In this document: positions 2,726 through 26,145 of the stretch, in pieces
Numbering within the stretch: the stretch's first letter is position 1
Layout of the letters: each line of letters starts with the position of its first letter
NCBI RefSeq assembly: GCF_029227915.1
Contig: NC_079885.1
Span: 28,709,001 to 28,773,000, forward strand
Origin: Hydractinia symbiolongicarpus
Lineage: Eukaryota > Cnidaria > Hydrozoa > Anthoathecata > Hydractiniidae
Length of the DNA stretch: 64,000 nucleotides
Direction: 5' to 3'
Position numbers and translations under genes: made by a program
Notes under the pieces: model-generated
Databases searched by the model: none
Told to the model about the DNA's origin: nothing
What the model saw: only the letters and a program-made list of their open reading frames with translations

Positions 2726-2773
2726 CACGTTCGTTTGCCGCTACCACGGGAGTGGAAATTAATTATGCGCATG
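2726..2773 (+). repeat. left terminal inverted repeat
   Basis: Block one, CACGTTCGTTT at 2726-2736, and block two, AAATTAATTATGCGCATG at 2756-2773, both recur inverted at the right end. The 19-base spacer between them is unlike the 8-base spacer on the right. Weaker similarity to the right end continues for several tens of bases inward. Confidence 0.9.
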
Positions 2774-3192
2774 TGCGGAATTTCAGATTACGTCATCTTG
2801 TTTTTTTGTATGATAACGCTAGCTAGGGTCACACTACCACCCATTACATTTAAGCTCCAAAACTACATTTAAAATGAAGCTGGGCATTTTAAACATTATT
2901 TTTTCATAGAAAGAGTGACCAAGGTACTTAAAAATGACCTTTGATACATTTCGATATGTAAACAAACACTAAAAAAAAGCGGGAAAATTTCGATGTACCG
3001 TTTACGAAAATTGAGCTACTTTGAATCATTATATCTATAAAAATAAAATTTATGGCGACTTATAAATTAATGTAAAACGTTTTACAGACTTCACTTTATT
3101 TCTACAGACCTTACTTTAACCCCTACCACTTTTTTGTACCACATTTTTTGAAGACTTTTTATATCATGGTTTTCTCTTAAAATTTATCCAAT
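2774..3192 (+). other. 5' leader and presumed promoter of the transposase gene
   Basis: A+T-rich, non-coding. It holds the subterminal part of the transposon and must contain the promoter and leader for the gene starting at 3193. No TATA box or other element can be named with confidence. Confidence 0.4.
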
Positions 3193-4086
3193 ATGGCTGA
3201 ATATCACTCTGAGAAAATAAACAGACTTTGCAGATTTTGTGGACAATTGCTATCAAAGGACACAGTTTTAGTATCTATACATAAAAGCAGATTATTAAAA
3301 TGCTTTTTTATTGATGTTGACCAAGACTCAAATGAGATACATCCAACAAAAATGTGCCTCAAATGCTGTTCAAAACTGACACATAGTGAAAAGAGAACAA
3401 CAACTTCTGTAATGCATGAAGTTCATTGGCATCCACACTCTGAAAATTGTCCTTACTGCTTCGAAAAACTTAAGAGAGGACGTAAAACGAAGAAACACAA
3501 ATCAGGCAGGCCAACAGCAAAAAAACCAATATGGACACGAATTTTGTTAAACATTTTCGAAAACACCAAAGATGTCGTTCCCCCAGAATTAACACTGGAA
3601 CACTTAAACACCAGTCTTAACCCTCATTTTAGCCTCTGTCGTTGTCAGCTGTGTCACAATATTTTGCGAAAACCTGTAACAACAACATGTGAACACACTT
3701 TTTGTTATAATTGCTTGGCGCCAAAAATACTGGGAAAGCAAGAAATTGAGAGTTTATGTCCCACTTGTTTTTTTGTTATAAAAATTGAGTCGCTCAAAGT
3801 TTCAAAAAATATAATATCAATGATGCAGTGCTTAAAACTAAAATGTAGAAAAGATTGTGGAGAGGCTCTAACTGTAACTGAAATAAACCAACATGAAAAA
3901 GTATGGAATGGCTTACAAAGTTTTTCAAGTAGTAGATCAGAGACATCTTTAAACGATATTTTTAAAATTGACGAGCAAAGCAGTGTTATACCACGAGAAT
4001 ATGAAGATGCTGCTCTTCACATAATAAAGCAAAAGATGGCACGTTCTGAAGACAGAACTATTGAATTTAAGAGTGGTGGGCCAAGA
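3193..4086 (+). CDS. transposase exon 1: RAG1-like N-terminal zinc domains and RING finger
   Basis: 298 codons, from the ATG in CCAATATGGC to a donor AGA|GTAAGT, ending in phase 0. Zinc-ligand pattern in order: C13-x2-C16 and C55-x2-C58; H75, H78 and H80 near C86-x2-C89; a basic stretch at about 95-111; a C3HC4 RING with C151-x2-C154, C166-x-H168, C171-x2-C174 and C189-x2-C192; then a post-RING finger with C218-x3-C222 and H234. This order matches the N-terminal third of vertebrate and echinoderm RAG1, where the RING acts as a ubiquitin ligase and the zinc regions help dimerise and localise the protein. The catalytic core is encoded by exons 3-9. The frame is open throughout and no zinc ligand of the RING is missing. 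A function in this element is inferred from the family only. Confidence 0.85.
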
Positions 4087-4216
4087 GTAAGTTAAACAAT
4101 ATATATATATAAACAATTATTCTGTTGTTTTCTTTATTCGATTAAAGTATACCATAGATGTGTACATTAATGATTTATATACATATATTTACATTTTATA
4201 TGTATTCTATTTTAAG
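4087..4216 (+). other. transposase intron 1
   Basis: 130 bases, GTAAGT at the 5' end and a pyrimidine-poor TTTTAAG at the 3' end. Removing it joins exons 1 and 2 in phase 0 without a stop. Confidence 0.75.
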
Positions 4217-4492
4217 CCACTGGTGTTCACGTCTACCCCCAAGGCAGTCAAAGAAGGAAATGTGACCAGTAGAACTGTATACAACAGAGATTTGTATGTT
4301 AGGGGCCACATCAGTACAATATCAGGGAATTCATCGCAGTCAATAGCTCAACAAACTGTTAAATTACTAAAAACATTTGGGAGTGAAGAACGATCACAGA
4401 TTTTAAAGGAGAGCGATTTGTCAGCATCTGTTATTTCACCTGAATCGATGGTTGCTTTGAAAGTTATATGGGAGTACCATGGGAAAAACTAA
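4217..4492 (+). CDS. transposase exon 2 (broken 3' end)
   Basis: Read in phase with exon 1, it encodes 91 residues starting PLVFTSTPKAV and continuing to ...VIWEYHGKN, then a TAA stop at 4490-4492. Just after the stop the same frame stays open and reads RQWLRRLK before dissolving into (TA)n. This suggests that the TAA is a nonsense mutation inside a longer exon and that the exon continued past 4516. The alternative is that a nested element starts at about 4489 and the similarity is chance. In RAG1-type proteins this is where the DNA-binding segment before the catalytic core would begin. The remainder of that segment is not found next to exon 3, so the coding sequence between here and 23604 is lost or displaced. 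Confidence 0.7.
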   Translation, partial: PLVFTSTPKAVKEGNVTSRTVYNRDLYVRGHISTISGNSSQSIAQQTVKLLKTFGSEERSQILKESDLSASVISPESMVALKVIWEYHGKN

Positions 4493-4522
4493 AGACAATG
4501 GCTACGTAGACTGAAATATATA
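4489..4522 (+). repeat. left copy of 34-bp inverted repeat
   Basis: Begins CTAAAGACAATGGCTACG and runs into (TA)n. The reverse complement lies at 18483-18516 with no mismatch seen. It overlaps the apparent continuation of transposase exon 2. Confidence 0.85.
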
Positions 4523-4776
4523 TATATATATATATATATATATATATATATATATATATATATATATATATATATATATATATATATATATATATATATA
4601 TATATATATATATATATATATATATATATATATATATATATATATATATATATATATATATATATATATATATATATATATATATATATATATATATATA
4701 TATATATATATATATATATATATATATATATATATATATATATATATATATATATATATATATATATATATATATA
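4516..4776. repeat. (TA)n microsatellite, 261 bp
   Basis: Uninterrupted alternating TA. Open frames of alternating Tyr-Ile across it are artefacts. The true length may differ in the genome because assemblies handle such tracts badly. Confidence 0.97.
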
Positions 4777-5051
4777 CTACTAATAGCATCATTTGGTCGC
4801 AAAGTCAAAAAATGAAGCATTTGGTAGACAATACATATTTCTAAAAATTTACGTCACTTATAAGTAAATAATTTCGCGCATCACTCCAAAAACTTTCATT
4901 TTGCATGGGGTACGTAAAGGTCTTACCGAGATTAAAAAATACATTGTCATGTCCACCAAATAACGTTGCCTTTCCTAAAAGGCTCATTTGGTAGACACGA
5001 CCATATATATTATCACTTATAGCATCATTTGGTAGACATGTCTACCAAATG
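4777..5051 (-). repeat. left cluster of TTTGGTAGACA motifs
   Basis: Full or one-mismatch copies of CATTTGGTAGACA near 4790, 4818, 4984 and 5026, plus one in the other direction near 4950. The last forms a perfect 26-bp palindrome at 5026-5051 with arms CATTTGGTAGACA. Copies here mainly read TTTGGTAGACA; at the other end of the 14-kb segment they read TGTCTACCAAA. Confidence 0.75.
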
Positions 5052-24924: not shown

Positions 24925-25014
24925 GTAAGAAAATTAACAAATTTTACAAGTTTTCTTTTTTGCATGTGTATCAAGGACTTTATGTATTCATCATATATAT
25001 TTTTTCAATTTTAG

Positions 25015-25207
25015 CATAAAAACCTAATCAAACTGTGCAATTCGTTGCCAATAATTGTATGCCAGCTTGGATTTGTTGGCACAGAAATTCATGAAGAAGC
25101 AATTAAGGCGTGTAGTGATTTTAAGAAGTTATTCATGAAATACTATTTGTGTCATAATTTGATGAATTCTTCAAATAAGTTTGATGATGAAAAACTAAGT
25201 CAACTTG
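25015..25207 (+). CDS. transposase exon 8
   Basis: 193 bases from TTTTAG|CA to CTTG|GTGAGT, leaving one base of a codon completed by exon 9. Encodes HKNLIKLCNSLPIIV and a helical stretch to FDDEKLSQL. No recognised catalytic residue, but position and phase fit the helical insertion of the core. Confidence 0.73.
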
Positions 25208-25281
25208 GTGAGTTGGCCTTAAAATCATACACTTTAAATTCTCTTTTATAGTAAGGCATATACTTTTCTTCAACATTTTAG

Positions 25282-25601
25282 ATGGTGCAATCAAAGAGCT
25301 CATGAGCTTTTTCCGTTCGACTTGGCCAAATGTACGCATTACTCCCAAACTGCACATGTTAGAAGATCACGTATTGCAGTTTATCACAAAATGGAGAGTG
25401 GGGCTAGGATTATATAACGAGCAAGGTGGTGAGGGTATTCATCCTGAGTTTAATGACTTGCACAGAAAGTTCTGTCGAATGAAACCAAACCGGCGGAGAC
25501 TATTCAGCATGTTAAAAGAGCATCATGCAAGAGTAAATCCTTCGGCAAAGACTTTAAAGCCTGTTGTAAAGCCCAGAAAAAGGAAGTTTGCCTTACAATG
25601 A
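25282..25601 (+). CDS. transposase exon 9: HxxxxH zinc pair, catalytic Glu, C-terminus
   Basis: Acceptor CATTTTAG at 25281, stop TGA at 25599-25601. It contains KLHMLEDHV, whose His pair (25353-25355 and 25368-25370) is the HxxxxH half of the zinc site, and YNEQGGEGIHPEFN, which holds the presumed catalytic Glu (25420-25422, with a second Glu at 25432-25434). The order HxxxxH then Glu matches the RAG1/Transib core. A basic tail, VKPRKRKFAL, may be a nuclear localisation signal. The frame is intact. Confidence 0.82.
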
Positions 25602-25633
25602 ATGTTAATAGCTAGCTTTGTATGAAAAGTAAA

Positions 25634-25639
25634 AATAAA
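25634..25639 (+). terminator. polyadenylation signal of the transposase gene
   Basis: AATAAA 32 bases after the stop codon of exon 9, the first such signal downstream. Confidence 0.55.
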
Positions 25640-26108
25640 ACACAGTTTGGAAGCATGTACCTACCTCTTTTCCACATCAAGCCCACCAATAGATTTGAGT
25701 GAATTTAGGACATTTTCAAAACACATTTACATCACTTTAAAAAGGTGGTAGGATACCAGGGATATATTTGCTAAAAAGTTAGATCCTTTGAAACTTCAAA
25801 TATACCATGCATAGCCCATAAGAAATTTTTCTCCATGTAAACGAAGTCGACAAACTCACAGAGAAAAATTTGGCTAATTTTTCAAGTTTGTATTCTCAGC
25901 TACGTTAACAGCGCTTTCCGGCTCCGAACAAATTAAAAACGTTTGTCTAGAGTGACCATGGATCAGATAATGCGACAATCTCTCTCAACGGTTATAAATT
26001 AGTCCATAGGGCTTCCTTTTAATCAAAATAAACCATACACATTTCAGCTGTATTCAGCACAGCCACGTTTGCTATGGTTACCATTTTTAATCAAAACAAA
26101 ATTTGACG
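25640..26108. other. 3' flank of the transposase gene up to the right terminus
   Basis: Non-coding, A+T-rich. The last ~60 bases resemble, inverted, the sequence just inside the left terminus, so the terminal repeats extend imperfectly beyond the two listed blocks. Confidence 0.5.
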
Positions 26109-26145
26109 CATGCGCATAATTAATTTCATACCGTAAACGAACGTG
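26109..26145 (-). repeat. right terminal inverted repeat
   Basis: Reverse complement of the left terminus: block two at 26109-26126 and block one at 26135-26145, ending in ...AACGTG. Confidence 0.9.

Follow-up and report, generated by a model that had tools for sequence, protein, structure and literature searches.

Chapaev transposases are equated with the Pfam family DUF1280 and fall in the same clade as RAG1 (PMC3985635; PMC, PubMed Central), and their hallmarks comprise 3- to 4-bp target duplications, CAC/GTG termini and the C(2)C, LH and H(4)H motifs (PMC4079192). According to PMC4411706, Chapaev transposases share the N-terminal "Chapa" zinc domain of RAG1, and in two subgroups a RING comes after it; an ancestor with both domains is proposed and the conclusion on RAG1 is drawn there. 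The same paper describes canonical Transib as lacking any identifiable domain outside the core. EnSpm, Mirage, Chapaev, Transib and RAG1 are further united by the same zinc motifs, with duplications of 2 to 5 bp and ends that are mostly CA..TG (PMC12730594). Duplications of 5 bp are given for RAG-like transposons (PMC7204232) and for Transib (PMC8355894), the spacers of ProtoRAG are 27/31 (PMC8289069), and N-RAG-TP is composed entirely of RAG1 N-terminal-like sequence (PMC8355894). Repbase has folded Chapaev into EnSpm, which is a naming matter (PMC4455052). Here, we analysed a 64,000-nt stretch of Hydractinia symbiolongicarpus DNA (contig NC_079885.1, positions 28,709,001 to 28,773,000; hereafter the window, to which all coordinates refer), in which positions 2726–26145 very probably represent an autonomous DNA transposon, now degraded, that belongs to the Chapaev group (CMC/CMCT clade), lies inserted in a satellite array and encodes a transposase in which a RAG1-like zinc region and a RING precede the DDE (Asp/Asp/Glu) core. 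RAG1 itself is the protein that cleaves antibody genes in humans. Our literature search found no paper joining RAG1, Hydractinia and a transposon.

Limits and termini of the element

A satellite array with a ~373-bp unit makes up most of the window and is interrupted between 2726 and 26145; tandem arrays with a period of 372–374 bp lie on either side, and one monomer of ~373 bp is split by the element. At the left junction, the flank ending in GGGACTTAAT gives way to the element start CACGTTCGTTT, whose first base is 2726, and at the right junction the element end AAACGAACGTG, whose last base is 26145, is followed by the flank TAATTGAACTG. The uninterrupted monomer reads GGGACTTAATTGAACTG at the target, and empty-site-like sequences (at most 5 substitutions in 19 nt) occur 103 times on the plus strand and twice on the minus strand, with TTAAT at the target position in 66 of the 103 plus-strand sites. 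The intact monomer, together with TTAAT at like sites, therefore indicates that the insertion duplicated TAAT, i.e., 4 bp, and this is the sole parse found for the junctions. The duplication, read from one copy against empty satellite monomers, lies within the 3- to 4-bp range of Chapaev, and CAC/GTG termini are present at both ends. The exact limits, inverted termini and TAAT duplication against empty monomers that a sequence-only reading of this stretch had proposed thus hold. The features of the ends are as follows:

2726..26145, plus strand: whole element, Chapaev-type DNA transposon with nested insertions (ends, duplication, relatives' alignments)
2722..2725, no strand: left target site duplication copy, TAAT (junction reading)
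2726..2736, plus strand: left outer block, CACGTTCGTTT (end comparison)
2755..2773, plus strand: left inner 19-bp block, beyond an 18-nt spacer (end comparison)
26109..26127, minus strand: right inner 19-bp block, beyond a 7-nt spacer (end comparison)
26135..26145, minus strand: right outer block, the same 11 bp as the left, inverted (end comparison)
26146..26149, no strand: right target site duplication copy, TAAT (junction reading)

The outer 11 bp of the two termini are identical and inverted, the element end being the reverse complement of CACGTTCGTTT, and are followed by 19 bp that are identical at differing offsets; in the repeat comparison, this inner block extends to 29 nt at 86% identity, and the 18-nt and 7-nt spacers show no mutual resemblance by eye. 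In a control with 5000 random pairs of 49-nt stretches from 2700–26000 (pairs less than 200 nt apart dropped), one pair had a match of at least 19, an AT array being its likely source. The terminal 13-mer, with up to 2 mismatches allowed, is present at the two ends, with 0 mismatches each, and nowhere else in the window; this count of two is not above chance (shuffle mean 2.94), and the evidence for the ends is therefore their position, the duplication and the inner block. Elsewhere in the satellite, a 121-bp part is doubled in places within 31430–63540, e.g., from 31430, 38179, 40164, 42853, 47781, 51998 and 63297, a possible sign of higher-order structure.

The transposase gene, its relatives and the state of the copy

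The element contains two halves of one spliced gene, recovered as nine exon pieces and separated by a long interval:

3193..4086, plus strand: exon 1, 298 codons, RAG1-like zinc region (~3292–3525) and RING (~3640–3768), then a GTAAGT donor (reading frame, Pfam, PDB)
4217..4489, plus strand: exon 2, lying between RING and core and followed by an (AT)n array and nested sequence (reading frame, tblastn)
4490..23603, no strand: nested and intronic sequence between exons 2 and 3 (tblastn, repeat comparison)
18511..23396, minus strand: nested Penelope-like element, reverse transcriptase open reading frame (ORF) 20483–22357, GIY-YIG ORF 19716–20516, two direct 572-bp repeats (ORFs, repeats, Pfam)
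23604..23843, plus strand: exon 3, DUF1280, first catalytic Asp at 23665–23667 (Pfam; Asp by alignment)
23916..23992, plus strand: exon 4, second catalytic Asp at 23947–23949 (tblastn; Asp by alignment)
24078..24280, plus strand: exon 5, C(2)C zinc motif (reading frame, tblastn)
24356..24685, plus strand: exon 6, LH motif, approximate 3' end with an AT run at which no GT donor is seen (reading frame, tblastn)
24766..24924, plus strand: exon 7 (reading frame, tblastn)
25015..25207, plus strand: exon 8 (reading frame, tblastn)
25282..25601, plus strand: exon 9 with the stop codon, H(4)H motif, catalytic Glu at 25431–25433 (tblastn; Glu by alignment)

Exon 1 matches RAG1_imp_bd, the RAG1 importin-binding zinc region, with an E-value of 2.7e-11, as well as RING models; against PDB sequences, its best match is mouse RAG1 (7.1e-13, residues 33–235), and the remaining strong matches are RINGs such as BARD1. 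Exon 3 matches DUF1280 (PF06918), the Chapaev transposase family, at 2.2e-11. The DDE residues and the C(2)C, LH and H(4)H motifs are all read in the window exons and are kept in 37 or all 38 of 38 aligned relatives. Splice acceptors are AG at 8 of 8 positions and donors GT at 6 of 8, exons 2 and 6 lacking a donor. In tblastn alignments, the relatives P0007, P0009 and P0014 cover exon 1 and the core exons in order, and P0009 and P0014 also align to exon 2. The RAG1-like N-terminus, the DDE core (DUF1280 in exon 3, with the Asp/Asp/Glu placed by alignment) and the spliced nature of the gene, all claimed by the earlier reading, are borne out by these results.

A protein search with the core returned 63 relatives, the named ones coming from Hydra, echinoderms, lancelets, a sponge, a coral and a snail; none carries a Hydractinia name, organism names being given on part of the rows. 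DUF1280 is found in 37 of 38 relatives, and P0007, P0009, P0011 and P0051 each combine N-terminal zinc or RING domains with a DUF1280 core within a single protein. A quick tree was built from 37 of the 63 relatives together with the window core; three of its rows were flagged for odd composition, and in it the core groups with 7 of the 9 Hydra rows at a Shimodaira–Hasegawa-like approximate likelihood ratio (SH-aLRT) support of 96. At E≤0.001, all 49 matches of the predicted P0007 structure are to RAG1, BbRAGL or HzTransib. When region 1–300 of the joined protein was used as query, none of 602 candidates reached E≤0.001, which is no evidence of absence, because this search requires shared 5-residue words and P0007 is alike there by tblastn. 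One scan of viral contigs for DNA of relatives gave 34 pattern matches and no relative. As for a nonamer-binding domain, several whole-model alignments extend back to RAG1 residues 392–411, yet the segment between RING and core matches no RAG1 chain on its own, and kinship of exon 2 with that domain is not supported.

The copy is old and dead and can no longer make the enzyme. The frame of exon 2 is disrupted near its end, where the sequence enters the (AT)n array, and ~70 protein residues are missing, corresponding to ~381–452 of P0009; at E≤10, six relatives used as tblastn queries produced two matches of chance level between exons 2 and 3, neither of that stretch. Of the 23.4 kb of the element, ~19.1 kb lies in this interval and is largely foreign, leaving an element of ~4.3 kb without it. 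The description of the locus as a clean insertion is therefore right as to its limits, which are exact, but not as to the gene, which is not intact.

Within the interval, the domains of the Penelope-like element score just below the Pfam cut-offs (RVT_1, 28.4 bits against 29.6; GIY-YIG, 20 bits against 22.6), and its 572-bp direct repeats are 99.65% identical. Positions 4489–4695 and 18310–18516 form a perfect 207-nt inverted repeat, in which the end of exon 2 and its (AT)n array recur inverted, adjoining the left Penelope repeat; a 14-kb piece thus has the look of a large fold-back or of an inverted duplication linked to an insertion. A minisatellite at 12498–14405 holds many copies of a motif like GTCCACCAAATGCT at spacings of ~81–293 bp, and such motifs also occur, inverted, beside the (AT)n array near 4808–5074. 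In addition, a 378-bp unit is present in two tandem copies, 98% alike, at 17428–18184, and a hairpin at 15160–15285 has 35-nt arms that are 94% complementary.

Identity of the element and rival explanations

All testable Chapaev hallmarks are present in the element, and the Chapaev-like chemistry that had been proposed from the CAC ends and the 4-bp duplication agrees with the hallmarks listed in PMC4079192. Several points weigh against this assignment. The ends and the duplication are known from one copy, and the placement rests on the hallmarks and DUF1280. The predicted structure belongs to the relative P0007 rather than to the window protein. Sequence comparison shows no significant likeness of the core to RAG1, with sub-threshold stretches only, and no RAG1 core model appears among the 10 Pfam families of P0007 (25 of the 75 families of the set listed).

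The RAG1-like N-terminus, the RING and the predicted RAG1-like fold would also suit a RAG-like transposon proper of the TransibSU/ProtoRAG kind, nearer to RAG1 than Chapaev is. We consider this highly improbable: the duplication is 4 bp here and 5 bp in the RAG-like transposons of PMC7204232, exon 3 and 37 of 38 relatives carry DUF1280, and no RAG2-like protein is apparent among the window ORFs of at least 100 aa, as judged from their translations without a profile run and in a rearranged interior. There is a very slim chance that a RAG1-N-like fragment and a transposase, two unrelated pieces, are joined only in this window, as the 19 kb between the halves and the disrupted exon 2 could suggest. 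This explanation stands only if the gene models of relatives with both halves are all chimeras, given that P0007, P0009, P0011 and P0051 unite such domains with the core, and that P0009 and P0014 span exon 1, exon 2 and the core exons in order. That the locus is a host gene domesticated from such a transposon is scarcely credible, since the ends and the duplication are kept, the site is a satellite and the gene is broken; in its favour, P0001 of H. symbiolongicarpus is named as a RAG1-like host protein. P0001 is 98% identical over 61% of exon 1 and is the one protein that, by sequence, points to Hydractinia as the probable host; as it is not identical to the window, it represents another copy, allele or species.

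For a Chapaev element, chemistry like that of RAG1 and Transib would have a transposase dimer hold both CAC ends, cut next to CAC and join the 3' ends 4 bp apart in the target. The zinc/RING part probably contributes to dimerisation and may serve as a ubiquitin ligase, by analogy with RAG1.

Unequal ends and comparison with known systems

The spacers of the two termini differ by 11 nt, and these unequal bipartite ends, known from one copy, are possibly a new point: no description of bipartite Chapaev ends with 18/7 spacers was found in the parts of the literature consulted. Such a difference is reminiscent of RAG signals, with their 12/23 spacers, and of ProtoRAG (27/31); a later insertion or deletion in one end would, with one copy at hand, explain it as well. 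It is an unlikely but conceivable extension that Chapaev ends here resemble recombination signal sequences, with a CAC outer block and an inner block at two spacings, 11 nt or about one helical turn apart, as in 12/23 signals. Were such ends shared by other Chapaev copies, the synapsis of unequal ends would predate the divergence of Chapaev from Transib/RAG, and the RING-to-core segment in exon 2 would be the candidate for reading the inner block; should the spacing recur, the age of 12/23-type asymmetry would be testable in already sequenced genomes.

The closest described system is Chapaev with Chapa and RING (PMC4411706; PMC4079192), which shares the CAC...GTG ends, the 4-bp duplication, the DUF1280 DDE core with C(2)C, LH and H(4)H, and the RAG1-like zinc region and RING before the core; relative to it, the window element is a new copy in a new host, dead, with bipartite ends and 18/7-nt spacers. 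With RAG1/ProtoRAG, it shares the order of zinc region, RING, linking segment and catalytic core, the predicted core fold, CAC ends and unequal bipartite ends, but it differs in its duplication (4, not 5 bp), in a core that is unlike by sequence, in that no RAG2-like gene is apparent among its ORFs of at least 100 aa, and in its spacers (18/7 against 27/31). Canonical Transib, as represented by HzTransib, is described with the core as its one identifiable domain and a 5-bp duplication, whereas the window element has N-terminal domains and 4 bp. N-RAG-TP of Aplysia likewise places a RAG1 N-terminal-like protein in a transposon; compared with its description in PMC8355894, the RAG1-N part is joined to a transposase core here, and the label N-RAG-TP type, for an element first recorded as RAG1-N-type, is not established. 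The bearing on the origin of the RAG1 N-terminal zinc domains that was claimed for it is not new, the conclusion being in print (PMC4411706). At the fold level, the predicted structure of P0007 supports the published proposal of one architecture for Chapaev, Transib and RAG1. Because PMC4411706 already reports Chapaev with Chapa and RING, the element is a sound addition to a described kind: a Chapaev insertion with sharp limits and most of its RAG1-like gene retained, and a good example of the known Chapaev–RAG1 link rather than a new one.
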